Below, one piece after another: positions 31,973 to 54,502 of a stretch of DNA of 64,000 bases (its first letter is position 1; the number at the start of each line of letters is the position of its first letter). The notes under the pieces are model-generated. The model worked only from the letters and a program-made list of their open reading frames with translations, had not been told where the DNA came from and did no database searches. The translations under genes were made by a program, and so were the position numbers. Source of the stretch: Bradyrhizobium sp. WD16 (GTDB lineage: Bacteria; Pseudomonadota; Alphaproteobacteria; Rhizobiales; Xanthobacteraceae); NCBI RefSeq assembly GCF_024181725.1, contig NZ_CP028908.1:1178001-1242000 (forward strand). Reading direction: 5' to 3'.

Positions 31973-32025
31973 AGGAGGCAAGGCAATTTGGCCGAATTCC
32001 TGGCTCAGTCTCTGCATCACGCACA

Positions 32026-32120
32026 TCGTCGTGGCCGGGCATGTCCCGGCCATCGACGTCCTGCCTTGATCAATCGCTGCAAAGGCATCGATGCCCGGCA
32101 TCAGGCCGGACATGACGAAA
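32026..32120. repeat. REP-like palindromic element
   Basis: GGCCGGG-CATGT-CCCGGCC (32033-32051), flanked by GTCGT and ATCGAC, forms a strong hairpin, followed by a second partial arm set (GCCCGGCATCAGGCCGGAC). It lies between btuB and btuC and could attenuate or stabilise the transcript. Such elements are dispersed in related genomes. Confidence 0.6.
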
Positions 32121-32154
32121 GTGGTCTAAAGATCACCTTGGCCCCCACCCTCCC

Positions 32155-34813: not shown

Positions 34814-34823
34814 GGTCTTTCGT

Positions 34824-34860
34824 CATCCTGAGGCGCGAGCGAAGCCAGCCTCGAAGGATG
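34824..34860. repeat. REP-like palindrome after btuF
   Basis: CATCCTGAGGC...GCCTCGAAGGATG forms a near-perfect hairpin in the gap between convergent btuF and cobU. It resembles a dispersed rhizobial palindrome and may serve as a bidirectional transcript end; a partial version occurs at about 45730-45760. Confidence 0.6.
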
Positions 34861-34898
34861 GCGCGGGGACAGCTTTCACTGCCGGCCACCACACGCTC

Positions 34899-35420
34899 CT
34901 ACATCACCCCGCCCTTCAGCCATAGCGGCAGGCCGGCGGCGATGAAGGCGACGCGGACCGCCACCTCGGCGACGGCCTGGTTGAGCCGGCCCTGGGCGTC
35001 GCGGAAGGCGCGCCCGAGCGACGTTTCGGGCACGAGGCCAAGACCGACCTCGTTGGAGACCAGCACGATGTCGCCGGGCGCCTGGCGCAGCACCGCAACC
35101 AGCCGCGCCGTCTCGTCGTCGACCTCCCTGCCGGCGTGCATCAGATTCGACAGCCACAGCGTAAGACAATCGACCAGCAGCGCGCTGTCGGCAGCGGCAT
35201 TGTGTGCGACGGTCTCGCCCAGCGCCAGCGGTGCCTCGATCGTCTGCCAAACGGCTGGGCGCCGCGCCCGATGATGGGCGATGCGTTCCGCCATTTCGGT
35301 ATCGCCCGCCGTCGCGGTGGCGAGATAGATCCGCCGCGTCGCGGTGCTCTCGGCGATCAGTCTTTCGGCGAAATTCGACTTGCCCGAACGGGCGCCGCCG
35401 AGCACGAGCGTAACCGTCAT
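34899..35420 (-). CDS. cobU: Adenosylcobinamide kinase/adenosylcobinamide-phosphate guanylyltransferase
   Basis: The 173-residue bifunctional enzyme has the P-loop GGARSGKSN at its N-terminus, IYLATATAGDTEM and the VSNEVGLGLVPE motif. It phosphorylates adenosylcobinamide and adds GMP, a step in building the nucleotide loop of B12. It is the last gene of a cobS-cobC-cobU operon, with a four-base overlap with the upstream phosphatase gene. Also called CobP in alphaproteobacteria. Confidence 0.95.
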   Translation of the reverse strand: MTVTLVLGGARSGKSNFAERLIAESTATRRIYLATATAGDTEMAERIAHHRARRPAVWQTIEAPLALGETVAHNAAADSALLVDCLTLWLSNLMHAGREVDDETARLVAVLRQAPGDIVLVSNEVGLGLVPETSLGRAFRDAQGRLNQAVAEVAVRVAFIAAGLPLWLKGGVM

Positions 35421-35995
35421 GTTGGCGCTCCCACGCGCTGATTGACCCCACTGATCCGCCAGTTGCCGGCGAGGCGGTCGATGCGCGTCAGTGACAAGGG
35501 ATCGACGACAAAACGCAGCGCCGCGGCGGGATCGAGATCGAGCGCCACCGCGAGCGCGGCCCGCACGGTGCCCGAATGCACCACCAGCACGACGTCGCCG
35601 ATCGGCACCGCACCGAGCCCGGCGCGCACCCGGGCGATCTGGCCGACGAAACTTTCGCCGCCGGGCGGCGCATTGGTGGCGGCGGCCGCCCAGAACGCGC
35701 GATAGGTTTCGCCGCCCTCCGCCTCCAGATCACGATGGCGTCGCCCGGTCCAGGCGCCGAAATCCTGTTCGCGAAAGGCCGGTTCGGGGATCGCCGCGAG
35801 TCCGAGCGCCGCGGCCGTATCGCGGGTGCGCCGGGCCGGGCTGGCGAAGCTCGGCGCGCCGGCCGGCAGCATGGCGGCCAGCGCCGCGAACGCAGCCATG
35901 TCACTGACGTCGGCCGGTGCATCCGGCGCGTGGATGATGCCGCGGCCGCCGGCTACCGGAGCATGACGGATCAGCCACAAGCGACTCTCGCTCAT
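35417..35995 (-). CDS. cobC: Histidine phosphatase family protein, CobC-like
   Basis: The 192-residue protein belongs to the phosphoglycerate-mutase-like phosphatases: catalytic histidine in WLIRHAPVAGG and a second histidine in VVLVVHSGTVRAAL. The first motif has Ala rather than the common Gly after RH. Located between cobS and cobU with four-base overlaps at both ends, it is best read as alpha-ribazole phosphatase (CobC), which removes the 5'-phosphate from alpha-ribazole phosphate or cobalamin phosphate. Confidence 0.85.
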   Translation of the reverse strand: MSESRLWLIRHAPVAGGRGIIHAPDAPADVSDMAAFAALAAMLPAGAPSFASPARRTRDTAAALGLAAIPEPAFREQDFGAWTGRRHRDLEAEGGETYRAFWAAAATNAPPGGESFVGQIARVRAGLGAVPIGDVVLVVHSGTVRAALAVALDLDPAAALRFVVDPLSLTRIDRLAGNWRISGVNQRVGAPT

Positions 35996-36738
35996 GACAG
36001 CCTCGCCGCCACGACCAGCAGCACCAGGATCTCCGCCACCTGTTCAGCGCCGCCGAGCACGTCGCCGGTGACGCCGCCGATCTGCCATCTGGCGACGGCG
36101 CCCATGACCGCAACGCCGAGGCCCGCGACGATGACGGCCAGCAAGGCTGTGGCGAACGGCAGCATGAGCAGCGCGATGACGACGCCGAACAGCGCGGCGA
36201 GCGCGACGCTGCCTTGACCGGGCCGGCCGGCGGTCGCGGCAAGGCCATCCTGGCGTGCCGAAGGCAGCGCCAGGGCGAGGGCCGGAATCGCGGCCCGCCC
36301 CAGTGCGTGGGCGGCGACCAGAGCGCCGATCAACGCGCCCGACGGCAGCGCCGCCAGCACCGCTGCCCTGGCGCCGAAACTCGTGAGCAGGGCAAGGCCG
36401 CCATAGGTGCCGAGCCGGCTGTCGCGCATGATGGCGAGCTTGGCCTCGCGGTCGCGGCCGCCGCCGAAGCCGTCGCAGACGTCGGCGAAGCCGTCCTCAT
36501 GCAGGGCACCGGTGAGCAGAGCGGTGGCGCCGAGGGCCAGCACGGCGCTGGCGAGCGGCGGCACCGAGAGCCGCAACAAGGCGAGTTGCACCAGCGCGGC
36601 AACAAGGCCGATGGCGGCGCCGACTACAGGCAGCACCCGCATCGCCCTCGCCATGTTGACAGCCTGCGCCGAATGCGGAATGGGCAGACGGGTCGCAAAG
36701 GTGATGGCGGTCCAGAGATCGTCGAGCCAGGCGGTCAT
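35992..36738 (-). CDS. cobS: Adenosylcobinamide-GDP ribazoletransferase (cobalamin synthase)
   Basis: The 248-residue integral membrane protein has the CobS signature GALHEDGFADVCDGFGGGRD and multiple hydrophobic spans. It joins adenosylcobinamide-GDP to alpha-ribazole. The start is ATG 36738 (MTAWLDDLW) or ATG 36756; neither has a strong ribosome site. It heads the cobS-cobC-cobU operon and is divergent from cobT 59 bases away, so both halves of nucleotide-loop assembly share one control region. Confidence 0.93.
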   Translation of the reverse strand: MTAWLDDLWTAITFATRLPIPHSAQAVNMARAMRVLPVVGAAIGLVAALVQLALLRLSVPPLASAVLALGATALLTGALHEDGFADVCDGFGGGRDREAKLAIMRDSRLGTYGGLALLTSFGARAAVLAALPSGALIGALVAAHALGRAAIPALALALPSARQDGLAATAGRPGQGSVALAALFGVVIALLMLPFATALLAVIVAGLGVAVMGAVARWQIGGVTGDVLGGAEQVAEILVLLVVAARLS

Positions 36739-36797
36739 GCCGAACCATTCGCCCAAATCGGCGCCGCGCGCCAGTCGTGATTTTCAGGATCCTGGAC

Positions 36798-37811
36798 ATG
36801 GAATTCGACAGCCTCGATGCCATTCGCGCGGTTTGCCGCGACCTGCCGCAGGGTAACGCCAAGGCGCAGGCCGCCGCCGAAATGCGCGAGGGCCAGCTCA
36901 CCAAGCCGCCGGGCAGTCTCGGCGAACTGGAAGCCCTCGCCGCCTGGCTGGCGCTGTGGCAGGGCCGCGCGGAGCCCCGCCTCGACAACGTCACCATCGC
37001 GGTCTTCGCCGGCAATCACGGCGTCGCCGCGCGCGGCGTCTCGGCCTTTCCAGCCGACGTGACCGCGCAGATGGTGCAGAATTTTGCCCATGGCGGCGCC
37101 GCCATCAACCAGTTGGCCAAAGCCGCCGGCGCCGAGCTGAAGGTGACGCCGCTGTCGCTCGAGACATCGACCGCGGACTTCACCGCCGAGCCCGCCATGA
37201 GCGAGGGCGACTTCCTCTCCTGCGTCAACCAGGGCGCCGCAACCGTCGCGCTCGCCTGCGACCTGCTGGTGGTCGGCGAAATGGGCATCGGCAATACCTG
37301 CGTCGCCGCAGCGCTGTGCGCGGCGCTGCTCGGCGGCGGTGCGGCGCACTGGACCGGCCGGGGCACCGGCGTCGACGACGCCGGGCTGGCGCGCAAGCAG
37401 ACGGCGATCGAGCTGGGCCTGGCCCGCCATCGCGACGTCCTTGCCGATCCCTTGAGCGTCGCCCGCGCCCTCGGCGGCCGCGAGCTCGCCGCCATTTTCG
37501 GCGCAGTTCTGGCCGCGCGGCTGCGCCGCGTCCCGGTTCTGCTCGACGGTTTCGTCACCGCCGCGGCGGTGCTGCCGCTGGCGAAGCTGGCGCCGGACGC
37601 CCTCGGCCATTGCCGCGCTGGCCATGTCTCAGCCGAAGCCGGCCACCGCCTGCTGCTGCGGGAATTGGGATTGAAGCCGCTGCTCGATCTCGGCCTGCGG
37701 CTCGGCGAAGCCTCCGGCGCGGCGCTGGCGATCCCGCTGCTCCGCGGCGCCCTCGCCTGCCACGCCGGCATGGCGACGTTCGCCGAGGCCGGGGTCAGCG
37801 ACAAGAACTGA
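36798..37811 (+). CDS. cobT: Nicotinate-nucleotide-dimethylbenzimidazole phosphoribosyltransferase
   Basis: The 337-residue enzyme makes alpha-ribazole phosphate from nicotinate mononucleotide and dimethylbenzimidazole. Visible motifs are TKPPGSLGELEALA near the N-terminus, VFAGNHGVAARGVSAFP, GEMGIGNTCVAAAL and the C-terminal GRLG-like GLRLGEASGAALA region. The ATG at 36798 follows AGGA at 8 bases; a GTG at 36777 is less likely. Together with cobS, cobU and cobC this completes salvage of imported cobinamide. Confidence 0.95.
   Translation: MEFDSLDAIRAVCRDLPQGNAKAQAAAEMREGQLTKPPGSLGELEALAAWLALWQGRAEPRLDNVTIAVFAGNHGVAARGVSAFPADVTAQMVQNFAHGGAAINQLAKAAGAELKVTPLSLETSTADFTAEPAMSEGDFLSCVNQGAATVALACDLLVVGEMGIGNTCVAAALCAALLGGGAAHWTGRGTGVDDAGLARKQTAIELGLARHRDVLADPLSVARALGGRELAAIFGAVLAARLRRVPVLLDGFVTAAAVLPLAKLAPDALGHCRAGHVSAEAGHRLLLRELGLKPLLDLGLRLGEASGAALAIPLLRGALACHAGMATFAEAGVSDKN

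Positions 37812-41279: not shown

Positions 41280-41283
<4 letters not shown>
40279..41283 (-). CDS. 2-oxoacid dehydrogenase E1 alpha subunit (TPP-binding)
   Basis: The 334-residue subunit has the thiamine diphosphate motif [17 protein letters not shown] ending in CENN about 30 residues from its start, and the phosphorylation-loop-like [17 protein letters not shown]. Its N-terminus ([19 protein letters not shown]) and [12 protein letters not shown] are typical of the PdhA/AcoA branch. It overlaps the acyl-CoA ligase gene by four bases (ATGA at 41280-41283). The order ligase-E1a-E1b-E2-ACP is unusual and separate from a housekeeping pyruvate dehydrogenase operon. Confidence 0.94.
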
Positions 41284-43037
<1,754 letters not shown>

Positions 43038-43093
43038 CGCCGACCTCATGGCTCCACGTCGGCGACACGGTACCGGCGAAGGCTCAGACAAAC

Positions 43094-43107
43094 TTGACGT
43101 GGGTCAA
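43094..43107. promoter_or_regulatory. FixK/FNR-type box TTGAC-GTGG-GTCAA
   Basis: A perfect dyad match to TTGAY-N4-RTCAA, centred about 63 bases before the acyl-CoA ligase start. That distance fits an activator at about -41 with a short leader. Box seen, regulator inferred. Confidence 0.8.
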
Positions 43108-43234
43108 CTTCGCGCCCTGCCGGCACGCTGCACCGCAGCGCAATCAGCCGGGACACGGTCGCCCGGTGCGTTCAGCGCCATTTGTTTCGACCCGCGACCC
43201 GCATTGGGGCCGCATCGGCGCGGCACCTTGGAGC

Positions 43235-43248
43235 TTGATCAAGATCAG
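43235..43248. promoter_or_regulatory. FixK/FNR-type box TTGAT-CAAG-ATCAG
   Basis: Nine of ten conserved positions match TTGAY-N4-RTCAA. It is centred about 72 bases before the nrdJ start, in the same 276-base divergent region as the box serving the acyl-CoA ligase operon. Confidence 0.7.
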
Positions 43249-43313
43249 ACCCGATCGCCGCGACTGCGGGAAGCTTGTGCTTGTTCCGCAGCCCTGCAGC
43301 AAGCGAGGGGGGA

Positions 43314-45128
43314 ATGGAACAGTCCCTGGCCAACGTCTCCCGCCGCGTCTGGGAGATGAAATATCGCTACACCGACGACAAGGCCGACGAGGCCACGATC
43401 GCCGACAGCTGGCGGCGCATCGGCCGCGCCCTCGCCGCTGTCGAGACCGCCGATGCGCCGAGCTGGCAGGCGCGCTTCGAGGGCATTCTGCAGGATTTCA
43501 GGTTTCTTCCCGGCGGGAGGATCCAGGCCGGCGCCGGCGTGCGACGCGACGTGACGCTGTTCAATTGCTTCGTCATGGGGCCGATCGAAGACTCCATTCC
43601 CGGCATCTTCCGCGCGCTGGAGGAGGCCGCAGTCACGATGCAGAAGGGCGGCGGCATCGGCATCGACTTTTCGACGCTGCGTCCGCGCGGCACGCGCGCC
43701 CGCGACACCGGCACCGTCGCCTCGGGCCCTCTTCCCTTCATGCAGATCTGGGACGCCATGTGCGGCACCATTCTGTCCACCGGCGCCCGCCGCGGCGCCA
43801 TGATGGCAACGCTGCGATGCGACCATCCGGACATCGGCGAATTCGTCGACGCCAAACGGCAGGCCGGCCAGCTGCGGCGCTTCAATCTGTCGGTCCTGGT
43901 GTCCGACGCCTTCATGGCGGCGGTGCGCGGCGACGCCGAATGGCTGCTGGTGTTTCCGGCCACAGCCTTCGCGGGCAGCGGCGAGACGCTGGACCGCCAA
44001 TGGTCCGGCGCCAGGGAGCCGGTGCCGTGCCGCGTGGTCCGGCGCGTTGCGGCCCGCGACCTGTGGCGGGCCATCCTGCGCGCCGCCTATGACGTCGCCG
44101 AGCCGGGCGTGCTGTTCATCGACCGCATCAACCGCGCCAACAATCTCAATTACCGGGAGGAGATCAGCGCCACCAATCCCTGCGGTGAAATTCCCCTGCC
44201 GGCCTATGGCGCCTGCGATCTCGGTTCGATCAATCTGACACGCTTGGTGCGCGCGCCCTTCACGCCGCAGGCCCGGATCGATGCGCAGAAACTCGCCGAG
44301 ACGGCAACGCTCGCGGTGCGGCTGCTGGACAACGTGATCGATGCCTCGCGCTTCCCCCTGCCGCAGCAGGCGGAGCGCGCCCGCGGCTCGCGCCGCATCG
44401 GCCTCGGCATCACCGGTCTCGCCGACGCCCTGGTAATGCTCGGATTGACCTATGGAGACGATGTTGCGCTGGAATTCGCAAGGGATTTGATGCGCACGAT
44501 CTGTCACAGCGCCTATCGCGCCTCCATCGCGCTGGCCCGGGAAAAAGGGAGTTTTCCTCAATTCGAGCGCGACAGATATCTTCAGGGCGAATTCATCCGG
44601 AGCCTGCCCGGCGACATCCGCGACGGCATCGCCCGGCACGGCATCCGCAACAGCCACCTGCTGGCCATCGCGCCGACCGACACCATCAGCCTGCTGGCGG
44701 GAAATGTCTCGAGCGGGCTGGAACCGATCTTCGCCCCGTCCTACCGGCGCCAGCTGCTCGAAGCCGACGGGAGGTTGACCGAATACGAGCTGACCGATTA
44801 TGCGCTGACCTTGTGGCGCGCCACCGCCGGTACCGAAACTGGGCAACCGGATCATTTCGTCACGACCGGCGGCCTCAGCCCGCGCGCGCATCTCGACACC
44901 CAGGCCGCGCTGCAGCCTTTCGTCGACAACTCCATCTCCAAGACCATCAACATTCCCGAAAGCTGCCCTTTCGCGGACTTCGAGACCGTTTACGACCTCG
45001 CCTATGACCTGAAGCTGAAGGGCTGCACCACCTTCCGTCCCAATCCTGTCACCGGCAGCGTCCTGAGCGAGACGGGCGCCGGTGACAACGCGCCGCATTG
45101 TTGCGTGCTCGAACGCGAGGCGGACTGA
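43314..45128 (+). CDS. nrdJ: Adenosylcobalamin-dependent (class II) ribonucleotide reductase, short form
   Basis: The 604-residue protein contains the 10-stranded barrel signatures LFNCFVMGP, STGARRGAMMATL, SATNPCGEIPL and the C-terminal redox cysteine pair (PHCCVLEREAD). Class II enzymes reduce ribonucleotides with B12 and need no oxygen. Many class II NrdJ proteins are 700-1200 residues; this is a compact form without an ATP cone. The ATG at 43314 follows a GAGGGGGG tract. A FixK/FNR-type box upstream and the B12 genes at 29.5-37.8 kb fit a role in DNA synthesis under low oxygen. The ThpR-like gene follows after 7 bases. Confidence 0.93.
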   Translation: MEQSLANVSRRVWEMKYRYTDDKADEATIADSWRRIGRALAAVETADAPSWQARFEGILQDFRFLPGGRIQAGAGVRRDVTLFNCFVMGPIEDSIPGIFRALEEAAVTMQKGGGIGIDFSTLRPRGTRARDTGTVASGPLPFMQIWDAMCGTILSTGARRGAMMATLRCDHPDIGEFVDAKRQAGQLRRFNLSVLVSDAFMAAVRGDAEWLLVFPATAFAGSGETLDRQWSGAREPVPCRVVRRVAARDLWRAILRAAYDVAEPGVLFIDRINRANNLNYREEISATNPCGEIPLPAYGACDLGSINLTRLVRAPFTPQARIDAQKLAETATLAVRLLDNVIDASRFPLPQQAERARGSRRIGLGITGLADALVMLGLTYGDDVALEFARDLMRTICHSAYRASIALAREKGSFPQFERDRYLQGEFIRSLPGDIRDGIARHGIRNSHLLAIAPTDTISLLAGNVSSGLEPIFAPSYRRQLLEADGRLTEYELTDYALTLWRATAGTETGQPDHFVTTGGLSPRAHLDTQAALQPFVDNSISKTINIPESCPFADFETVYDLAYDLKLKGCTTFRPNPVTGSVLSETGAGDNAPHCCVLEREAD

Positions 45129-45135
45129 GGCGGCG

Positions 45136-45726
45136 ATGACGGAGAGCAACGACAGTGCGCCTGACCTATCGCGCGACGAGGCTCCGTCGGTCCGCGTCTT
45201 TGTCGCGCTGAAAATCCATGAAGCCATCGCGCGCGATCTCGCCGTCGTCGCCCGGGAACTCGACGATCCCGCCGTTCGCCGCATTGCCATCGAGGACATT
45301 CACCTCACTCTGGTGCCGCCCTGGGCGGAACCGGCGCCGGCCAAGGCGATCGAGACTCTGGCGAGCGTCGCCGGCCGCTTCGGTCCCTTCCCGCTCGCCA
45401 TCGAACACGTCGGCTACGGCCCCCAGCGCCGCGAGCCGAGGCTGCTCTGGGCCGACTGCGCCGACACCGAAGCGCTGGCATCGCTGCGGGCGGCGCTGCT
45501 CGCCGCCTTCGGCGGGAGTGACGACAGACCGTTCCGGCCGCACATCACCCTGGTGCGCATCCGCGGCAACGGCCGCGCCGTCGCGAAGCGCCATCCGCTC
45601 GACCGACGGCTGGCGCTGACGCAACAGATCAATTCGGTCGAACTGTTTCAGTCGCCTGCTCCTGGAGCGCACGGCTACAAGGTGCTGGCATCAGCGGCCT
45701 TGAGCAGTCAGGCCTTGCGGCTGTAG
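45136..45726 (+). CDS. thpR: 2'-5' RNA ligase/RNA 2',3'-cyclic phosphodiesterase (ThpR/LigT)
   Basis: The 196-residue protein has the two HxT motifs of the 2H phosphoesterase family: DIHLTLVP near residue 55 and RPHITLVRI near residue 135. ThpR proteins act on RNA ends with 2',3'-cyclic phosphates. The ATG at 45136 follows GAGG at 5 bases and lies 7 bases beyond nrdJ, so the two are almost certainly cotranscribed and would share low-oxygen control. Why an RNA-end enzyme is paired with ribonucleotide reductase is not clear. Confidence 0.9.
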   Translation: MTESNDSAPDLSRDEAPSVRVFVALKIHEAIARDLAVVARELDDPAVRRIAIEDIHLTLVPPWAEPAPAKAIETLASVAGRFGPFPLAIEHVGYGPQRREPRLLWADCADTEALASLRAALLAAFGGSDDRPFRPHITLVRIRGNGRAVAKRHPLDRRLALTQQINSVELFQSPAPGAHGYKVLASAALSSQALRL

Positions 45727-45763
45727 GCTCGCGCAGGAGCGAAGTCAGCCGTCCTTCGAGCTT

Positions 45764-45777
45764 TTGATCGGCATCAA
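45764..45777. promoter_or_regulatory. FixK/FNR-type box TTGAT-CGGC-ATCAA
   Basis: A perfect 5+5 dyad in the gap after thpR, centred about 80 bases before the unknown gene at 45851. Confidence 0.8.
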
Positions 45778-45850
45778 GGCCCGCGACCGGTCCATACGAA
45801 AAATGGAACCGAGGCACATAGCCGGGACGCCGCTCCGGAGGACGTCAGCC

Positions 45851-46339
45851 ATGGAACGCTATCCTGTCGATCTTGATCCCGGACAGGTCGTTCGCTGGAT
45901 CAAGGCCGAATGCGAGGCCACACCTCTGGCCTTCCGCACGAGCGTGCGCTGCATGCGGGAAATGCGAACGCTGAACGGCAACGACGGCGTCGCACTGGAC
46001 GACGAGGACCGCGGGGATCTCAGCGAGGTCGCCACCATCATCACACTCGAGATCGCGCCCGTGCACGCGAGAGACGGCTGGACGCTCAGCGTCGTTGTCG
46101 AGGACGAGCTCGGTCATCACTCGCTCGGCACCGGCACCATTGGCGAGGAAGTCCAGCTCGATCCGGACTATTTCTACCGCATGTTCATCCGGCGCGGCCG
46201 GGGCAACGCCATCGTCTCCGCCGAGGTCGACGATCCCTCGGCCCGGCAGCGGCTGAACTGGCTGTTGCACCTGATCGAGACCGACCACCATGCGCCCGAC
46301 GGCCATGCGCCGCCCACGCGCAAGCGGAAGGCCGGATGA
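45851..46339 (+). CDS. Hypothetical protein, 162 aa, FixK-box-linked
   Basis: I do not recognise this protein. It is acidic, has no signal peptide or membrane span, contains two cysteines (AECEATP, SVRCMREM) and a likely alpha/beta core (EVATIITLEIAPVHA, WTLSVVVEDELG), and ends in a basic tail PPTRKRKAG. The ATG at 45851 has GGAGG ten bases upstream. A perfect FixK/FNR box lies just upstream and the DUF2267 gene starts 140 bases downstream, so all may respond to low oxygen. Confidence 0.7.
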   Translation: MERYPVDLDPGQVVRWIKAECEATPLAFRTSVRCMREMRTLNGNDGVALDDEDRGDLSEVATIITLEIAPVHARDGWTLSVVVEDELGHHSLGTGTIGEEVQLDPDYFYRMFIRRGRGNAIVSAEVDDPSARQRLNWLLHLIETDHHAPDGHAPPTRKRKAG

Positions 46340-46478
46340 AGGTTCTGACGGAGAATTCGCCGGCGAATGGCCCCCGGCCAGCGTCCGATCGATTGCTATC
46401 GATCTGCCCGATTATCAGACCCCAAGCGAAACACGCGCGGAGAGTGAAGTTGTCCGCAGAAGTCGATAGGAGCCAGTC

Positions 46479-46916
46479 GTGAGTATAACCAGCGTCACCG
46501 CGCTCGATCACACCATTCAGAAAACCAATGTCTGGCTGCGTGATATCTCCGAGGAACTAAGCCTGGAGGACCGCCACCGCGCCTACGAGGCCTTGCGCGC
46601 CGTGCTCCACGCGATGCGCGACCGGCTGCCCCCGGACGTCGCGGTGCATTTCGGCGCCCAGCTCCCCATTCTGGTGCGCGGCATCTATTACGAAGGCTGG
46701 CACATGGCCGGAACGCCGACGAGGGAGCGCACCGTCCAGCACTTCGTTGACCGCGTGATCGCCAGCCTGCCTCCTGCCTTTCCGCTCGATCCGCTCGCCG
46801 TGACCCGCGGGGTATTCGAGGTGCTTTGGGAGCGGCTCGATCCGGACGCCTTCGACAAGCTGATGGAACATCTGCCGGAGCCGATCAGGACTTTGCGCAC
46901 CGGCCCTCGCGCCTGA
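46479..46916 (+). CDS. DUF2267 domain protein
   Basis: The 145-residue protein consists of a single DUF2267 domain: RHRAYEALRAVLHAMRDRLP, then HFGAQLPILVRGIYYEGWH, then TPTRERTVQHFVDRV. The function of this small helical family is not known; members occur near low-oxygen and stress genes. The start is GTG with AGGAG seven bases upstream. No FixK box of its own is seen, so it may be read from the promoter of the 45851 gene. A close paralogue follows. Confidence 0.88.
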   Translation: MSITSVTALDHTIQKTNVWLRDISEELSLEDRHRAYEALRAVLHAMRDRLPPDVAVHFGAQLPILVRGIYYEGWHMAGTPTRERTVQHFVDRVIASLPPAFPLDPLAVTRGVFEVLWERLDPDAFDKLMEHLPEPIRTLRTGPRA

Positions 46917-46955
46917 CCGCCCAACTCCCTCCAACCTGCCGCAGATTGTCGATGC

Positions 46956-46969
46956 TTGATCGGGATCAA
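46956..46969. promoter_or_regulatory. FixK/FNR-type box TTGAT-CGGG-ATCAA
   Basis: A perfect dyad in the gap between the two DUF2267 genes, centred about 113 bases before the second. An AT-rich AAATAAT stretch about 30 bases downstream of the box could be the -10 element. Confidence 0.82.
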
Positions 46970-47075
46970 CACGGGCGTTTCGCTTCTGTCTTGAAATAAT
47001 AGTCGGTCGCGCCGAGGCGACGTGTGTCGCGCTCCGGTTCCGTCCGGCGATCGACATGGACAGATGGAGGCGACG

Positions 47076-47504
47076 ATGAGCGCAACCGGCGTCACTGCCC
47101 TGGATCACAGCATTCAGCAAACCAATGTCTGGCTCAAGAGCGTCTGCGACGAACTCGACCTCGAGGATCGGCATGACGCCTACAGCGCGCTGCGCGCCGT
47201 GCTCCATGTGCTACGCGACCGCCTGCCGCCGGAGGTCGCGACCCATTTCGGCGCCCAGCTGCCGATGGTGCTGCGCGGGCTCTTTTACGAAGGCTGGCAT
47301 ATGGCGGGAACGCCGACGAGGGAGCGCACCGTCGCGCAGTTCGCCGACCGCGTGCTGGCGCAGCTGCCGGCCGGCTTCCCGCTCGATCCGGTGACCGTGA
47401 CCAGCGGGGTTTTCGAGATCCTGTGGCAACGGCTCGATCCCGGCGCCTTCAGCAAACTCATCGAGCTCCTGCCCGAGGAGATCCGGACGATGGCGGGGCG
47501 ATGA
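47076..47504 (+). CDS. DUF2267 domain protein (tandem paralogue)
   Basis: The 142-residue protein is highly similar throughout to the gene at 46479 (shared VTALDH-IQ-TNVWL start, ALRAVLH-LRDRLPP, HFGAQLP, YEGWHMAGTPTRERTV), so the pair arose by duplication. It begins at ATG 47076 behind GGAGG. It has its own perfect FixK/FNR box. It lies between that box and the one serving the topoisomerase VI operon. Confidence 0.88.
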   Translation: MSATGVTALDHSIQQTNVWLKSVCDELDLEDRHDAYSALRAVLHVLRDRLPPEVATHFGAQLPMVLRGLFYEGWHMAGTPTRERTVAQFADRVLAQLPAGFPLDPVTVTSGVFEILWQRLDPGAFSKLIELLPEEIRTMAGR

Positions 47505-47529
47505 GGCCGCCATCAGCGGCCCTTCCGGC

Positions 47530-47543
47530 TTGATCCTCGTCAA
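47530..47543. promoter_or_regulatory. FixK/FNR-type box TTGAT-CCTC-GTCAA
   Basis: All ten conserved positions fit TTGAY-N4-RTCAA. The site is centred about 88 bases before the topoisomerase VI B start, in the 120-base gap after the second DUF2267 gene. Confidence 0.75.
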
Positions 47544-47624
47544 GCGCGCGGTCGTTCGTCTCGGCCACAATTCTTGATCGAGCGGCAATGAGGGAGGCGC
47601 CACGGTCGGCGCGGCGGTTCAATC

Positions 47625-49307
47625 GTGTCTGACAGGCCATCACCGCCCGCCACCGCGCTACAGATGGCGGGCCGCCAGCGCGACATCTCCGTGTCCGAGT
47701 TCTTTCTCAAGAACCGGCATCTGCTCGGCTTCGACACTCCGGCCAAGGCCCTCGTCACCGCCGTCAAGGAGGCGGTGGACAATGCGCTCGATGCCTGCGA
47801 GGAGGCCGGCATCCTACCCGAGATCCGCGTCGAAGTCAGCGAACGGGGCGGCCATGCCCGCGTCGCCGTCGAGGACAACGGCCCCGGCATTGTCGAAAAC
47901 CAGATCGCCCGGATCTTCGGCAAGCTGCTCTACGGCTCGAAATTCCACAAGCTCAGCCAGTCGCGCGGCCAGCAGGGCATGGGCATCTCGGCCGCTGGCA
48001 TGTACGGCCAGCTCACCCTTGGCAAGCCGCTGCACATCATCAGCCGCGTCAAGGGCGACAAGCTCGCCTCCGAGATGACGGTGTCGATCGACACCGCCCG
48101 GAACCAGCCCGACATCCACAGGAAGGCGCACCGGACGTGGGACCGGCCCCACGGCACACGGGTCGAGATGGAGATGGAAGGCCACCATCAGCTGGGGCCG
48201 CATTCGGTCGAGGTCTATCTCAAGGAGACCGCCATCGCCAATCCGCACCTCGCCATCACCTATCGTGACCCGCGGGGCGCAGAGATCCGCTTCGAGCGCA
48301 GCACGAAGACGCTGCCGCCGCGTCCGGCGGAGATCAAGCCACACCCCTACGGCATCGAACTCGGCCGCCTGATCCAGATGCTTGAGAATTCGAAGAGCCG
48401 CACGCTGCTGCGCTTCCTCGTCGACGAGTTCTCCTGCGTCGGCAAGACGACCGCGGGCAGGATCATCGCCCTCGCCGCCAGGATGTCGGATCGCAGGCTC
48501 AGCGACCGTTCGCACCCCAGACACATCGCCCATGTCCAGGCGACGGCGCTGCACAAGGCGATCCAGAAAACCAAGATCCTGGCGCCGCGCACCGACTGCA
48601 TCGTTCCGATCGGCGAGCAGCAACTGCTCGACGGACTGCACAAGGAAATCGCTGCGAAATTCTACACCGTCACGACGCGGCCGGCCGCGGCCTATCGCGG
48701 CAATCCGTTCCAGGTGGAAGTCGCCATCGCCTATGGCCGCCCCGACGACAACACCGTCGAAGTCGACGCCACCGGCCGCCTGCACAGGACGCAAAATGCC
48801 GAGCCGCATGCGGCGGAGAACCTGATCGCGCCCAAGGATGAGCCGGTGCGGCTGTTGCGCTTCGCCAACCGCGTGCCATTGCTCTATCAGCAATCGAGTT
48901 GCGCCATCACCAAGGCGATGATCCAGACCAACTGGCGCGGCTATGGCCTGCACCAGCCGAAAGGCGCCCTGCCGGTCGCCCCGATGGCAATCCTGGTCCA
49001 CGTCGCTTCGGTGTGGGTGCCCTACACCTCGGAATCCAAGGAGGCGATCGAGCCCTATCCGGAGATCCTGAAGGAAATCAGGCTTGGCCTGCAGCACTGC
49101 GCCCGCCAGCTCGCGCACTATCTGCGCCACGAGAGCCAGCTCACGGCAGAATTCGACCGCCGGACCTATATCGAGACCTATCTGCCGCATATCGGCGCCG
49201 CCCTGCAGGAGATCCTCGGCTTGAGTGACGCCGAACGCGACACCACCCTGCACCGGCTCGACGACGTGCTTCACGTCAGCCGCAGACCGCTACGGGCCGC
49301 CTCATGA
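47625..49307 (+). CDS. top6B: DNA topoisomerase VI subunit B
   Basis: The 560-residue protein has all parts of Top6B in order: a GHKL ATPase with KEAVDNALDA (catalytic Glu49, Mg-binding Asn53), DNGPGI (84-89) and GQQGMGISAAGMYGQL (115-130), a helix-two-turn-helix segment (FLVDEFSCVGKTTAGRI) and a transducer domain with the ATP-contacting lysine in PYTSESKEAIEPYP. Archaeal Top6B is about 530 residues. The start is GTG 47625 with only a weak ribosome site; ATG 47664 is an alternative. It overlaps the A subunit by four bases. Topoisomerase VI is typical of archaea and plants and uncommon in bacteria. Confidence 0.95.
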   Translation: MSDRPSPPATALQMAGRQRDISVSEFFLKNRHLLGFDTPAKALVTAVKEAVDNALDACEEAGILPEIRVEVSERGGHARVAVEDNGPGIVENQIARIFGKLLYGSKFHKLSQSRGQQGMGISAAGMYGQLTLGKPLHIISRVKGDKLASEMTVSIDTARNQPDIHRKAHRTWDRPHGTRVEMEMEGHHQLGPHSVEVYLKETAIANPHLAITYRDPRGAEIRFERSTKTLPPRPAEIKPHPYGIELGRLIQMLENSKSRTLLRFLVDEFSCVGKTTAGRIIALAARMSDRRLSDRSHPRHIAHVQATALHKAIQKTKILAPRTDCIVPIGEQQLLDGLHKEIAAKFYTVTTRPAAAYRGNPFQVEVAIAYGRPDDNTVEVDATGRLHRTQNAEPHAAENLIAPKDEPVRLLRFANRVPLLYQQSSCAITKAMIQTNWRGYGLHQPKGALPVAPMAILVHVASVWVPYTSESKEAIEPYPEILKEIRLGLQHCARQLAHYLRHESQLTAEFDRRTYIETYLPHIGAALQEILGLSDAERDTTLHRLDDVLHVSRRPLRAAS

Positions 49308-50440
49308 GCGCGAACGATGCCGACAAGCCGCGCGAAGCGCTCGCCAGCAAGACCATCGCCCTGATCGAATCGATCGCGCGTGCGGTGCGCGCCCGGATCG
49401 ACAACGGCGAGCTGCCGCAGATTGAATTTCCGGTCCGCGGCCTCGACAATGTCACCTATGATGCCGGCAAAGGCTGGTTCGAGCTCGGCGACGCGAGGAA
49501 GCTGCGCACCTTGACGGTGACCGCGGCGCGCTCCTTCGCCCAGACTTTGCGCATGATGGCGACCTCGCGCACCATGGTCGCCCACGACGACTTCGCCACC
49601 AAGCGCGAGGTCTACTACATCAGCAAGAACTGGGGCGCCTGCCGCTTCGAGGAGCAGACCGAATCCGATGCCATCATGGACGACATCGAGGCCCTTGCCT
49701 CGATGCACGGCCTCTCCCGCGAGCAGTTGCGCTTCTATCCGGAATCCCACGGCGGCGCAGTCGCCGGCCGGCTTACCGTAATCGACAGAAATCCAGCAAC
49801 CGGAGAAACCATCGAAATCGACTGCACCAGGCTCGGCAGCGGCGCCTACAGCATTCCAAGGTCAGCCGAACATCTCGCCTTCCGCACCGATGCGAAGTTC
49901 ATCCTCGCCATCGAGACCGGCGGCATGTTCCAGCGCCTCAATCACCACCGTTTCTGGGACAAGGCGAGCTGCATCATCGTCGAGATGGGCGGGGTGCCGA
50001 CCCGCGCCACGCGGCGCTTCGTCCGCCTCCTCGCGGATCACAAGGAGCTGCCGGTCTACTGCTTCGTCGATTGCGACCCTTACGGTTTCACCAACATCTA
50101 TCGCACGCTGAAGGTGGGCTCCGGCAACGCCGCCCACGTCAACCGCTTCCTCTGCGTGCCGCAGGCGCGCTTTCTCGGCGTCACGCCGCAGGACATCGTC
50201 GATTTCGGCCTCGAGGACGCCACCCACAAGCTGACCGAGACCGACATCAAGCGCGCCGAGGACGCGCTCAAGAACGACCCCTTCATCTCGGCCCACCCGC
50301 AATGGATCGCCGCGATCCGGCAGCAGCTGGCCATGGGCGTGCGGGCCGAACAGCAGGCCCTGGCGAAATGGGGGCTCAACTACGTCATCGACGAATACCT
50401 GCCGAAGAAGCTGGCGAAGCCGGAGAGCTTTTTGCCGTAG
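49304..50440 (+). CDS. top6A: DNA topoisomerase VI subunit A (Spo11-like)
   Basis: The 378-residue protein has the winged-helix catalytic tyrosine in KREVYYISKN (Tyr105, the second of the pair, by analogy with Spo11) and a Toprim metal site: Glu204 in AIETGGMFQRL and DxD at 256-258 in VDCDPYG. These residues are all intact, so an active DNA cleavage subunit is expected. It forms an A2B2 enzyme with the overlapping upstream B subunit and relaxes or decatenates DNA by ATP-dependent double-strand passage. This is full length, not a viral or mini-A form. Confidence 0.95.
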   Translation: MSANDADKPREALASKTIALIESIARAVRARIDNGELPQIEFPVRGLDNVTYDAGKGWFELGDARKLRTLTVTAARSFAQTLRMMATSRTMVAHDDFATKREVYYISKNWGACRFEEQTESDAIMDDIEALASMHGLSREQLRFYPESHGGAVAGRLTVIDRNPATGETIEIDCTRLGSGAYSIPRSAEHLAFRTDAKFILAIETGGMFQRLNHHRFWDKASCIIVEMGGVPTRATRRFVRLLADHKELPVYCFVDCDPYGFTNIYRTLKVGSGNAAHVNRFLCVPQARFLGVTPQDIVDFGLEDATHKLTETDIKRAEDALKNDPFISAHPQWIAAIRQQLAMGVRAEQQALAKWGLNYVIDEYLPKKLAKPESFLP

Positions 50441-51006: not shown

Positions 51007-51050
51007 ACCGCCGCCGAGCCTGCTCCACCGGACTGACGAGAGACGCCGCG

Positions 51051-51292
51051 CTAGTGTGGCGTCTCGCAATTGCCTACCGCCTTCGCGGCAACCCTCTCGT
51101 AGGCAATTGCGAGACATAAGCCACACTAGCACTTTGATTTTGCTAGTGTCCTTATGTCTCCGAATGACCGTGCGAGCATGAGGCAAAGGGAGCGGTCATT
51201 CGGAGACAGGACACTAGTGTGGCGTCTCGCAATTGCCTGCCGCCTTTGCGGCCAGTCTCTCGTAGGCAATTGCGAGACATAAGCCACACTAG
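51051..51292. repeat. CTAG-bounded palindromes, second array (left part)
   Basis: Three palindromes: 51051-51129, 51143-51217 and 51214-51292. The first and third are near-identical to the element at 18380-18458, and the second to 18472-18546, with the same kind of linker (CACTTTGATTTTG) between. The array is a tandem duplication of one composite unit, and its second copy is interrupted at the end of the third palindrome by the IS630 element. The remaining palindrome is at 52554-52628. Confidence 0.88.
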
Positions 51293-51305
51293 TCGCCCGA
51301 TTCAT

Positions 51306-51926
51306 TCAGATTGAAGGGTAAAGGTGCTTGAGTTTGATGCGAGCATTGGGAGTTGTGAAGTGCCAGTTTGCCTTGGTGTGGTTGGCATTGCGGTCTTTCT
51401 CCCAGGCGGCGATTTCCTCGGCGAGGGTCTGTTTGTCGGGAATCCGTCGATCGAGGCATTGGGACGATAGGACGCCGAGTTCGGACTCGGCGAGATCAAG
51501 CCAACTGCCGTGCTTTGGTGTGTAATGCCATTCAAAGCGCTCGACCAGCCGCCTGGCCTCAGGGGCCGGAAAGGCTTCATAGAGTGACGCCTTGCTGTGG
51601 ATGTTGAGATTGTCCTGGATCAGAACGATGGTCTTGGCGCCGGCGAAGTGGACATCGGCCAAGTCCTTCAGGACGTGAGCATAATCCACGGCGGTATGGC
51701 GATCGGTGACTTTGACATGGCGCCAGCCTTCGAGCGGAGCAAACATCATGAAGAGATTGGCGGTGCCGTTGCGTTTGTACTCGTAATCGCAACGAGCCGG
51801 GCGCCCACGCTTCATCGGAATCGGCATGCGCGTCTCGGCGAGGAGTTGCTTTGAGCTCTCGTCCAGGCAAACCAGCGGGTAGTCGGGATCGCGTGGCCGG
51901 GTGTAGACGGCCAGCACGTCCTCCAT
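51306..51926 (-). CDS. IS630 transposase, catalytic DDE part (orfB)
   Basis: This frame encodes the DDE nuclease domain: first Asp in LVCLDESSKQ, second in VLIQDNLNIHS and the Glu in LDLAESELGVLSSQ. It is normally made as a fusion with orfA by a -1 shift; the frame is in fact open upstream of the ATG at 51926 to the slippery site near 52010, reading TLQPHRRQCWVIPPKANSAF across the gap. Expression as a separate protein from 51926 is possible but would lack the DNA-binding part. Confidence 0.85.
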   Translation of the reverse strand: MEDVLAVYTRPRDPDYPLVCLDESSKQLLAETRMPIPMKRGRPARCDYEYKRNGTANLFMMFAPLEGWRHVKVTDRHTAVDYAHVLKDLADVHFAGAKTIVLIQDNLNIHSKASLYEAFPAPEARRLVERFEWHYTPKHGSWLDLAESELGVLSSQCLDRRIPDKQTLAEEIAAWEKDRNANHTKANWHFTTPNARIKLKHLYPSI

Positions 51927-51931
51927 GGCGG

Positions 51932-52456
51932 CTACGAACGCACTATTGGCTTTCGGCGGGATGACCCAGCACTGTCGGCGATGGGGCTGGAGAGTGTTTT
52001 TTTTAGTGCCCGCCCGATCGTCGAGTCGCTGGCACGATCAACAATATGGAGTTCTACGACTTTTTGCTCCAGTAGCCGCAGGGTCCAGCGTGTGCGTCCC
52101 TTGGGAGGTTTGGAACAAGCCAGGGCAATCAGTTTGGCTTCCTTCTCACCGTCAAAAATCCGCGCAACCCCCGGTGTTGCGCGCTGCTTACGGCTCAATA
52201 CCGCCTCGAAGCCTTCTTCCACCAGTTGCTTCCGCACTCGGTAAACCATGGAAACGCTTGTATCGAACGCCTTAATGATCCGGCTGTCACTCCAACCTTC
52301 GCCGGCTTCCGAGACATCGGCCTTCAACAATATTCGCGCCTTCAGCAGTTTTTGAGCTGCGCTCTTGCCCTTCCGTATCAGCGTTTCAAGCTGTTCGCGT
52401 TCCTCGCCGCTCAGCCGCACAACATACTTCTTTACCGAAATTTCCGTCGCAGCCAT
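51932..52456 (-). CDS. IS630 transposase, DNA-binding N-terminal part (orfA)
   Basis: The 174-residue frame begins MAATEISVKKYVVRLSGEER and contains two helix-turn-helix segments (GWSDSRIIKAFDTSVSMVYR and the winged-helix region near GRTRWTLRLLEQKVVE). After a run of eight A (complement of about 52007-52014) the frame continues with unrelated residues and stops, while the -1 frame continues into the catalytic domain. This is the expected programmed frameshift of IS630 elements rather than decay. Confidence 0.85.
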   Translation of the reverse strand: MAATEISVKKYVVRLSGEEREQLETLIRKGKSAAQKLLKARILLKADVSEAGEGWSDSRIIKAFDTSVSMVYRVRKQLVEEGFEAVLSRKQRATPGVARIFDGEKEAKLIALACSKPPKGRTRWTLRLLEQKVVELHIVDRASDSTIGRALKKTLSSPIADSAGSSRRKPIVRS

Positions 52457-52553
52457 GATCCTCTCCGGCGCTCGCGTCGAGACGATCGAATCGAATCACA
52501 AATTCTCCATCCTTTCAAATTATTTGAAGCGAGCGACTAGCACTTTGATTTTG

Positions 52554-52628
52554 CTAGTGTCCCTATGTCTCCGAATGACCGTGCGAGCATGAGGCAAAGG
52601 GAGCGGTCATTCGGAGACAGGACACTAG
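52554..52628. repeat. CTAG-bounded palindrome, right of the IS630 element
   Basis: This 75-base palindrome is almost identical to the one at 51143-51217. It closes the array that the insertion sequence split. Its final CTAG provides the TAG stop codon (complement 52625-52627) of the following ABC transporter gene, just as the array at 18.5 kb does for the chemoreceptor. Confidence 0.88.
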
Positions 52629-54502
52629 GAACGGGCAAGAGCGCCGCGAAGGCGCTTGCGCCGCCGTGCCGGCAGGTTCTTCCGAAGCCACGACGTCAGG
52701 TCGATCTCCCGCACCAGCCGGGCGCCGCCCGGCCGCGACTCCATCACCAGTTCGCGATCGTGAAAGGCCTCGAGCTCCGGCCGATGGCCGATACTGATCA
52801 GAGTCGTCCTGGGCAGTCGCTCGGTAACCAGTTTCATCATCTGCGCCTGGCTCGCCTGGTCGAGCGCGGAGGTCGCCTCGTCGAGCACGGCGATGGATGG
52901 ACGATGAATCAGCAGGCGCACAAAGGAGAGGCGCTGCTTCTCACCGCCCGAAAGGACGTGGTCCCAGGCGAACTCCGTTTCGTCGAGGCGGCTGCGCAGC
53001 TGGCCGAGCCCCACGGCTTCGAGCAATTCCTGCAGTACACCGCTGTCCACCGAATCCGGCGGAGCTGGATATGTCGCGGCGCGACGCAGGGTGCCGAGCG
53101 GGATGTAGGGATGCTGCGGCAGCAGAAACATTTTCCCGACAGGCCCGAAAAGAATCTCGCCCTGTCCCCACGGCCACAATCCGGCGATGGCGCGGACCAA
53201 CGTGCTCTTGCCGGTGCCGGATTCGCCGACCACCAGCACCTTCTCGCCGGGCGCAATGGTGACGTCGGTGTCGTTGACGACCGAGGTGCCGTCGTCGGTG
53301 GTGACCGAGAGGTCGCGCAGCCGCAGAGCCGCCTCCTCGGTCACGCCGCGGCTGATGTGTCCGACGCCGGTCTGCTCGGCGGCGGCCAGCACATCCAGCG
53401 ACGTCATGAGCGAAGCGACGCGATGAGCCGATGCGGTCCACTCGGCGAACTGCGGATAGTTGTCGACGATCCACCCGAACGCCTTCTGCACGATGACGAA
53501 GGCCGAGGCCGCCTGCATCACCTCGCCGAGCGTGATGGAGCCATCGAGATATTTCGGCGCCGCCAGAAGCACAGGCGCCGTCCAGACGACGAGACCGCTC
53601 GCATGGGATACGGCCGCCGTCCGCATGTTCTGAAAGCACAGTTCTCGCCACTGCCGGATGACCTCCACGAACGAGAGATCGAGACCGGCGCGCTCCTCCT
53701 TCTCGCCGCCCAGCAGGGCGATGCTCTCGCCGTTCTCCCGAAGCCGCTGCAGGATGGCGCGGTATTCAGCCTCCAGCTGGTTCTTTCGCTCGGAGACCGC
53801 GATGAAGCGGCGGCCCACCAGCACCATCGCTCCGCTTCCCGCAACGGAATAGACAAGTGCGCCGATGACCAGGAAACCGGGTATGGTGATGTTGGCGCCG
53901 AACAGCGAGAAGGTGAGCGAACCGCCGATCCTCCACAGCACGATGATGAATGCCAGGGCGGACACCACCGCAATGACGAGCCCGACGGCAAAATCGATGG
54001 GCGCCAGCGTCGCGATCCGCAAGTCCTCGGCGATCCGGAACTCGGGATTCTGGTGGGCGCCACGCACGAGGTTGAGCTGGTAATAGCGATCGTGCGCCAG
54101 CCATTGATCGAGCAGCCGATCGTTCATCCACGCACGCCATCGGCGCTGGAGCGTCATCCGCAGATAGACCCCGGAGACGCCCATGAGGACGCTTCCGGTC
54201 GCGATCGGCACAAAAAATGCAGCCTGTTTGACCACCTCATTGAGGTCTTTGCGCTCGAGCGCATCGAAGAACCATCTGTTCCAGCGATTGAACACCAGGT
54301 CGACGCCGAGATTGGCAATGACGAGGAGGCCGATCGCCAGCGTCAGCCCCCACGCCACCCTTGGTCCACCGCGGCCCCAGAAGCCGGAAGCGCTCATCCA
54401 GAACCGGCGCGTCAGGCTGCGACGACGGTCGGCGAGCTGAAGTTCCGGCTCGCCCGAACCGTCGTCGCGAACCGTGCCGCCTTGATGATCGATCGCGCTC
54501 AT
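52625..54502 (-). CDS. SbmA/BacA/YddA-like ABC transporter (fused permease and ATPase)
   Basis: The 625-residue protein has an N-terminal six-span membrane domain of the SbmA/BacA-related type (VFNRWNRWFFDALERKDL, LDQWLAHDRYYQL) and a C-terminal ATPase with Walker A GESGTGKSTLVRAIAGLWP, signature LSGGEKQRLSFVR and Walker B IAVLDEATSALD. Relatives move peptides, very-long-chain fatty acids or B12-like molecules. ATG 54502 follows GGAG at 6 bases. A near-consensus FixK/FNR site is about 113 bases upstream. The stop codon lies within a palindromic repeat. B12 transport is annotated for some homologues, which is of interest given the B12 genes here. Confidence 0.9.
   Translation of the reverse strand: MSAIDHQGGTVRDDGSGEPELQLADRRRSLTRRFWMSASGFWGRGGPRVAWGLTLAIGLLVIANLGVDLVFNRWNRWFFDALERKDLNEVVKQAAFFVPIATGSVLMGVSGVYLRMTLQRRWRAWMNDRLLDQWLAHDRYYQLNLVRGAHQNPEFRIAEDLRIATLAPIDFAVGLVIAVVSALAFIIVLWRIGGSLTFSLFGANITIPGFLVIGALVYSVAGSGAMVLVGRRFIAVSERKNQLEAEYRAILQRLRENGESIALLGGEKEERAGLDLSFVEVIRQWRELCFQNMRTAAVSHASGLVVWTAPVLLAAPKYLDGSITLGEVMQAASAFVIVQKAFGWIVDNYPQFAEWTASAHRVASLMTSLDVLAAAEQTGVGHISRGVTEEAALRLRDLSVTTDDGTSVVNDTDVTIAPGEKVLVVGESGTGKSTLVRAIAGLWPWGQGEILFGPVGKMFLLPQHPYIPLGTLRRAATYPAPPDSVDSGVLQELLEAVGLGQLRSRLDETEFAWDHVLSGGEKQRLSFVRLLIHRPSIAVLDEATSALDQASQAQMMKLVTERLPRTTLISIGHRPELEAFHDRELVMESRPGGARLVREIDLTSWLRKNLPARRRKRLRGALARS

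Follow-up and report, generated by a model that had tools for sequence, protein, structure and literature searches.

What does a bacterium that already has gyrase and topoisomerase IV do with topoisomerase VI (Top6), and when? This enzyme, which untangles DNA, is known chiefly from archaea and plants. In the sections available of the 2024 survey by Allen and Maxwell, the reason why such bacteria keep the enzyme is stated to be open (PMC11302465). The question is raised by a two-gene operon, top6BA, at 47625-50440 of a 64,000-nucleotide stretch of the chromosome of Bradyrhizobium sp. WD16 (contig NZ_CP028908.1, positions 1,178,001 to 1,242,000 of the forward strand). We call this whole stretch the window and give coordinates in its numbering unless another locus (L) or genome (G) is named. 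The operon is preceded by a candidate FixK/FNR-type box, and such boxes recur upstream of top6B in other Pseudomonadota. We suggest, with a probability of about two in three, that the operon encodes a topoisomerase VI of a Pseudomonadota clade that is controlled by a Crp/Fnr-family regulator and serves the cell as a decatenase induced at low oxygen, in addition to its two other type II topoisomerases.

The top6B gene (47625..49307, + strand) starts with GTG and encodes 560 amino acids with a GHKL ATPase domain and a transducer. The top6A gene (49304..50440, + strand) starts with ATG, overlaps top6B by four bases and encodes 378 amino acids with the catalytic Tyr105 and the Toprim residues E204, D256 and D258. 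The GTG start is backed by N-terminal codons conserved in L009, L010, L016 and L035. In Pfam, the B product matches Topo-VIb_trans (176.5 bits, cut-off 24) and HATPase_c (49.6 and 26.4), and the A product matches TOP6A-Spo11_Toprim (193.9 bits, cut-off 24.1), Topo_VI_alpha (50.8 and 23.6) and TP6A_N (48.5 and 26). Top6B exceeds the cut-offs of the NCBIfam models NF003218 (628.5 versus 274) and TIGR01052 (505.5 versus 380.7); six models match Top6A, all under cut-off (best 426.7 versus 675). Sequence search of the PDB retrieves Methanosarcina mazei Top6B (454 bits, two stretches) and Methanocaldococcus jannaschii Top6A (351 bits, residues 71-378). The characteristic parts of the enzyme are all there. 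Subunit A has the catalytic tyrosine domain, the Toprim glutamate and the DxD motif, and subunit B has the E, N and G boxes of the GHKL ATPase, with E49 and N53, and the transducer with the lysine of its SESK motif. The H2TH region of Top6B was judged solely by the continuous alignment to M. mazei subunit B. An earlier note on this DNA had claimed a complete, chromosomal operon with full-length subunits, overlapping genes, intact catalytic residues and host-like codon use, and all of this held.

The same residues are retained in relatives. Those of Top6A are invariant in all 27 rows of the Pseudomonadota clade, and those of Top6B in every clade row with letters there (26/26; 27 for the lysine), with G118 replaced by R in one row. 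The ratio of nonsynonymous to synonymous substitution rates is 0.056-0.203 in 16 comparisons (eight pairs, two genes), which indicates purifying selection on both genes. Codon use correlates with that of host genes at 0.96 for top6B and 0.94 for top6A, compared with 0.92-0.98 for seven host genes and 0.79 for the transposase of a nearby insertion element. The genome is a single contig of 5.95 Mb, and a genome search found one copy of Top6A. Both subunit genes occur together in 35 of 36 clustered loci, where L011 and L020 are one contig (L020 was for this reason left out of trees and counts) and subunit B of L030 is truncated by the contig end. The exception, L074, contains a seemingly decayed top6A (10001-11019, matched in two overlapping pieces) among relatives of FixK-island genes and no match to top6B; it is probably a case of loss and stands outside the residue and box counts. 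On sequence grounds, the window operon is a genuine and intact pair of genes for topoisomerase VI (A2B2, type IIB).

A nuclease with a DNA-breaking or defence role, similar to Spo11 or Wadjet, would be the rival to this assignment. Indeed, Spo11 and JetD are relatives of Top6A, and PADLOC reports a weak JetD match of 21.7 bits. However, this match covers residues 185-269 only, in the Toprim domain, and the operon includes a complete and conserved ATPase-transducer partner, so that we regard such a role as highly improbable. PADLOC gave no match for the other seven local proteins tested, and no JetABC-type match among all eight; a Wadjet system was rejected on these grounds. A pair of the Spo11/topo VIB-like type was rejected as well, as the B partner has neither a degenerate GHKL domain nor a missing H2TH region.

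The box upstream of top6B, TTGATCCTCGTCAA (47530..47543, + strand), is an exact TTGA-N6-TCAA, the FixK/FNR consensus, and lies 95 bp upstream of the gene, counted from its first base to the start codon; the FixK-type box of the earlier note is thus real. The published FixK2 box, in the accessible part of the source, is TTG(A/C)-N6-(T/G)CAA (PMC5582078). The window contains five exact TTGA-N6-TCAA sites where 0.32 are expected, and none of 100 shuffles reaches five. Four of them are within 4.5 kb (43094-47543), and the fifth is distant (11941). Besides the top6B box, these are TTGATCGGGATCAA upstream of the second of two DUF2267 genes (46956..46969, + strand, an exact TTGATN4ATCAA), TTGATCGGCATCAA upstream of a gene for a 162-residue protein (45764..45777, + strand), and a site between the divergent genes acs (- strand) and nrdJ (+ strand) at 43094..43107 (+ strand). 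An exact box is thus close to the gene of the 162-residue protein, to the second DUF2267 gene, to top6BA and to the acs/nrdJ pair. The whole genome contains 146 exact sites, versus 12 for the reversed pattern. The stricter TTGAT-N4-ATCAA occurs at 32 genome sites, versus none for its reverse, and two of these sites are at most 2 kb upstream of top6B. The shuffles and reversed-pattern controls argue against chance occurrence of the boxes.

The distance between the box and the candidate promoter is also characteristic. In class II promoters of E. coli FNR the box is centred at -41.5 and the -10 hexamer occupies -12 to -7, which requires 22 bp between them. In the window, the -10-like hexamer CACAAT (47566..47571, + strand) follows the box after 22 bp. 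In nine non-redundant loci, one of which (L026) has an imperfect box, this spacing was the best of 47 tested, with a mean of 3.44 matches of 6 versus 2.44 for the next one (0 of 2000 shuffles). Upstream regions of alphaproteobacterial and gammaproteobacterial loci have little in common that can be aligned besides the box. That the hexamer recurs at this distance argues strongly for a functional Crp/Fnr-type promoter at top6B, with a predicted transcription start at about 47577. For comparison, the start of Bradyrhizobium diazoefficiens nosR is 40.5 bp from the box axis (PMC5582078, sections available).

Candidate regulators are encoded in the same genome. Nine proteins score above the threshold of HTH_Crp_2, with 16 matches in all; the frames L109 and L115 appear to be antisense and were not used. 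One protein, L110, is FnrN-like and has the N-terminal cysteine cluster typical of FnrN/AadR, and another, L111, is FixK-like; both score under the NCBIfam equivalog cut-offs. Both contain ETVSR in the recognition helix, a motif that reads TTGA. Their genes are at 5.589 and 5.603 Mb, no more than about 20 kb from four exact boxes. The locus thus has these features of a class II FNR regulon member: the TTGA-N6-TCAA box, a -10 element at 22 bp, and regulators of the cognate type in the genome.

We then considered the upstream regions of top6B in relatives. Among 27 loci of the Pseudomonadota clade, 25 have enough upstream sequence (L029, with 17 bp, and L030, without a start of subunit B, were left out). 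The exact box was found upstream of top6B in 12 of the 25. Other genes in these loci have it in 24 of 291 cases (Fisher p 1.4e-6, not corrected for phylogeny), and in 4 of 207 when the five FixK-island loci are set aside. No box was found at top6A (0/27), and the reversed pattern gave 0/343. The box-positive alphaproteobacterial loci are the window, L009, L010, L011, L017, L018 and L035, to which may be added L023, titled only Proteobacteria, which groups with alphaproteobacterial copies in the trees; the gammaproteobacterial ones are L031-L034. Eight box-positive loci (L011, L018, L023, L035, L031-L034) have no DUF2267 gene in the retrieved sequence, although the 4.1-kb contig of L023 is too short to tell, and L018 and L033 have little upstream sequence. 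As the gammaproteobacterial loci, L011, L018 and L035 have other neighbours, the box tracks top6 and not only the FixK island. In Planctomycetota no box was observed at six top6B genes (of seven loci, one with too little upstream sequence) or at 102 other genes. On the joined tree the state of the box requires at least four changes. This fits one gain in Hyphomicrobiales-type copies, one gain in gammaproteobacteria and two losses, or an older gain followed by more losses.

The earlier note held that the operon appears integrated into low-oxygen regulation and is not simply a recent stray. The box at 12 of 25 loci and the class II spacing support this view and extend it to the clade, and relatives do not carry the genes only as random recent transfers lacking the box. 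It needs one qualification: gene transfer belongs to the history of these genes (below), and 13 of the 25 loci lack the exact box.

Several observations weigh against low-oxygen control. Conservation of the box at orthologous genes is only partial. The 13 negative loci are those of Methylocystis (L019), the plasmid-like L012, L027, the Rhodobacterales-type L021, L022 and L024, further L025, L028, L036, L037 and L038, and finally L016 and L026, each one base short of the consensus. The four gammaproteobacterial loci are closely related, so that few independent lineages contribute. The -10 hexamer of the window is weak, with 4 of 6 matches, and in the range of 20-24 bp the best hexamer is found at 21 bp in L011, L018 and L023 and at 24 bp in L009. 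About 8% of the TTGA-N6-TCAA sites of the genome are expected by chance (12 versus 146). The box nearest to nrdJ (43235..43248, + strand) has one mismatch and is followed by a poor -10-like hexamer (2/6). Finally, the majority of the genomes searched in the genus and family lack Top6, which therefore is not essential for low-oxygen life in general.

One possibility is that Top6 is a general backup, a constitutive or loosely regulated spare decatenase for times when topoisomerase IV or gyrase is scarce or inhibited, and that its box simply came with insertion into FixK-rich sites. The patchy presence of the genes and the loci without a box agree with this. So does a finding that Allen and Maxwell mention as unpublished data in the available part of their survey, namely that M. 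mazei topoisomerase VI can complement a parE-ts mutant of E. coli (PMC11302465). However, the box and its 22-bp spacing recur among other neighbours and in gammaproteobacteria, and we consider the backup role rather unlikely. Induction at low oxygen is the reading that we retain.

The origin of the operon was addressed with trees of both subunits (85 rows for A; 77 of 82 rows for B, chosen by length). The Pseudomonadota copies form one clade in each, with support 100/100, and this clade is next to or within Planctomycetota, where the relatives are the best 80 of 187 from a scan of GTDB species genomes in which distant Top6 are under-sampled. The deeper root is unsure, as the haloarchaeal outgroup branch of the A tree is very long. 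A transducer insert of about 28 residues (residues about 372-402 of the top6B product) occurs in 16 of 19 aligned B rows: all 14 of the Pseudomonadota clade and both of Planctomycetota. The rows lacking it are from Woesearchaeota, a deltaproteobacterium and a haloarchaeon (Natrinema). The trees and the shared insert point to a bacterial Top6 lineage as the immediate source, any archaeal origin being deeper; a direct archaeal donor was rejected as the nearest source on the same two grounds. The description of the operon as archaeal-type is thus right as a family name and wrong as to nearest kin, which among the relatives kept are Planctomycetota. The Top6 of a metagenome-assembled genome labelled Planctomycetaceae (RYN_440, L037) branches deep within the Pseudomonadota clade; a binning error is the probable cause.

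Distribution was surveyed with Top6A as the query in overlapping samples, drawn above the genus level from larger groups; every count includes the genome of the window. Top6A was found in 1 of 3 genomes of the genus, 4 of 391 sampled of the family, 3 of 397 of the order, 1 of 385 of the class, 2 of 398 of the phylum and 1 of 60 in an initial set of relatives. In the family, two weak Toprim-type matches were dropped: G300 and G407 align over about 90 residues at 30-33% identity, with E 9e-4 and 5e-4. The enzyme is not new in bacteria, since the survey in its available part lists Top6 in 17 bacterial families, Nitrobacteraceae among them (PMC11302465).

Transfer of top6 between alphaproteobacteria seems likely from gene content. 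In G620, of the same order, the genes are on a 68-kb contig which also carries RepA and RepC and hence should be a repABC plasmid or a similar replicon, and in Methylocystis suflitae (L019) a VirB4 gene is 2.8 kb downstream of top6A. Top6 is thus rare in the family of the window and, judging by the G620 contig, partly mobile. The G620 contig (L012-L015, G620:C2) further contains genes for a hydrogenase-4-like membrane subunit, a P-type ATPase and two-component systems near top6.

It could be asked whether Top6 is simply cargo, spread by plasmids or integrative elements for their own decatenation or maintenance, with chromosomal copies as remnants. The RepA/RepC contig, the VirB4 gene and the very patchy distribution would all suit this explanation. 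However, Top6A occurs in 3 of 72,556 plasmid records, all haloarchaeal, and in none of 50,697 phage records, and viral contigs gave no match; a phage or a common plasmid was rejected as the vehicle on this basis. Moreover, the copy in the window is on the chromosome and has host-like codon use, and the sole mobility gene seen within about 4 kb belongs to a high-copy element that has interrupted a repeat and not the operon. The cargo explanation is therefore improbable to us. The element in question (51289-52540), which we take to be of the IS630 family, has its transposase in two frames (51306-51926 and 51932-52456) and at least nine further near-identical copies in the genome. The repeat that it interrupts (51040-51292 and 52536-52629) belongs to a family present at tens of sites in the genome, where copies sometimes follow one another at intervals of about 163 bp.

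Upstream of the operon, the acs gene for acetate--CoA ligase (41280..43091, - strand; NF003313, 903.2 bits over 729) is divergent from nrdJ, or nrdZ (43314..45128, + strand; TIGR02504, 551.6 bits over 399.95), which encodes an adenosylcobalamin-dependent class II, oxygen-independent ribonucleotide reductase. The start at 43314 was chosen computationally; the longest frame begins at 43275. The next gene (45136..45726, + strand) encodes a protein of the 2'-5' RNA ligase / RNA 2',3'-cyclic phosphodiesterase family (PF13563, PF02834; TIGR02258 at 65.2 bits, slightly below the cut-off of 65.7). It is followed by the gene of the 162-residue protein (45851..46339, + strand; cluster C6), which has relatives in L010, L016, L017 and L074 and no match in Pfam or NCBIfam. 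The two DUF2267 genes (PF10025) are at 46479..46916 (+ strand, 111.2 bits) and 47064..47504 (+ strand, 111.0 bits); the second, of cluster C3, is also found near top6 in L009, L010, L016 and L017. The neighbours of top6 in relatives, whose survey had been proposed in the earlier note together with the phylogeny, differ while the box recurs. In Bradyrhizobium-type loci they are DUF2267 genes, a LonB-like protease, Hsp20, a universal stress protein and a phosphoribosyl pyrophosphate synthetase-like gene, several of them with boxes. The differential-expression table of a microoxia study of B. diazoefficiens, in the part consulted, includes universal stress proteins and cbb3 oxidase subunits (PMC6515984).

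Two side observations concern neighbours. Genes for a TonB receptor and a FecCD-type ABC transporter and homologues of cobU, cobS and cobT (29900-37811) are near the B12-dependent nrdJ. Directly upstream of top6B in the Rhodobacterales/Stappiaceae loci L021 (7391-8245), L022 (7463-8320) and L024 (7434-8288), and apparently in the same operon, there is a gene for a helix-hairpin-helix protein of 284-285 amino acids that resembles the N-terminal part of PolX and is a possible accessory DNA-binding factor.

With GyrA (1199.8 bits, cut-off 902) and ParC (879.2 bits, cut-off 628.9) encoded beside Top6, the cell very probably has three type II topoisomerases. The combination of gyrase, topoisomerase IV and Top6 is reported for seven bacterial species (PMC11302465, available part). 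No box was observed at the gyrA and parC loci (4.4 and 4.3 kb, with about 1.4 kb upstream each).

The mechanism that we propose is as follows. At low oxygen, FixK or FnrN would bind the top6B box, whose centre is about 41 bp ahead of the transcription start, and activate a sigma-70 promoter, so that top6BA is expressed. The neighbouring box-bearing DUF2267 and stress genes, and probably the oxygen-independent NrdJ, would be induced together with it. Using ATP, the A2B2 enzyme would transiently break both strands of one DNA duplex and pass another through the gap. Beside gyrase and topoisomerase IV it would act mainly as a decatenase and a relaxer of positive supercoils, and may aid segregation of the chromosome, or of plasmids, in slow, energy-poor growth at low oxygen. 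M. mazei topoisomerase VI is described, in the sections available, as a preferential decatenase with slow relaxation (PMC8837201); due to this preference, a role in segregation during slow growth suits Top6 better than relief of replication forks. A more general proposal, which we would put at even odds, is that Pseudomonadota topoisomerase VI is an anaerobiosis-induced enzyme recruited into FNR/FixK regulons in alphaproteobacteria and, perhaps separately, in gammaproteobacteria, where it may form a low-oxygen replication kit with class II ribonucleotide reductase. If this is true, oxygen would switch the set of type II topoisomerases that a cell contains, and a type II topoisomerase would be under direct oxygen control. 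As to when bacterial Top6 is used, the low-oxygen promoter that recurs at top6B is the first tangible clue that we found.

What is new here is apparently the candidate low-oxygen-type promoter recurring at top6B; the enzyme and its host group were already known. We found no report linking topoisomerase VI with FixK or Fnr in the literature searched, which leaves most subscription papers outside, and the microoxia study of B. diazoefficiens (PMC6515984) does not use the word topoisomerase in its main text. In its accessible sections, the survey of Allen and Maxwell treats the distribution of bacterial Top6 and the gyrase and topoisomerase IV complement, does not mention regulation and calls the role open (PMC11302465). 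The bacteria reported there with Top6 include Bradyrhizobium sediminis, Methylocystis NLS-7, Actibacterium MT2.3-13A and Roseibium aggregatum. The last three are our L019, L022 and L024 (strain PHM038), respectively, all in the clade of the window.

Compared with the known systems, the Top6 of the window is similar to the M. mazei and M. jannaschii enzymes in its two subunits, domains, catalytic residues and long alignments. It differs from M. mazei Top6B in the additional transducer residues, where the alignment breaks at query positions 372-402, and from both archaeal enzymes in its bacterial clade and its candidate Crp/Fnr-type promoter. Planctomycetota Top6 is the nearest clade in both trees, among the best 80 of 187 relatives, and both of its aligned B rows contain the transducer insert; unlike the window, it has no FixK box at top6B in any of the six loci counted. 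Topoisomerase IV is reported to be lacking in groups such as Planctomycetota (PMC11302465, available part). The closest regulatory parallels are the FixK2-activated promoters of nosR and napEDABC in B. diazoefficiens, as described in the part of the source consulted: the window box matches their consensus and its spacing is compatible, whereas those targets, unlike top6BA, are denitrification genes (PMC5582078).

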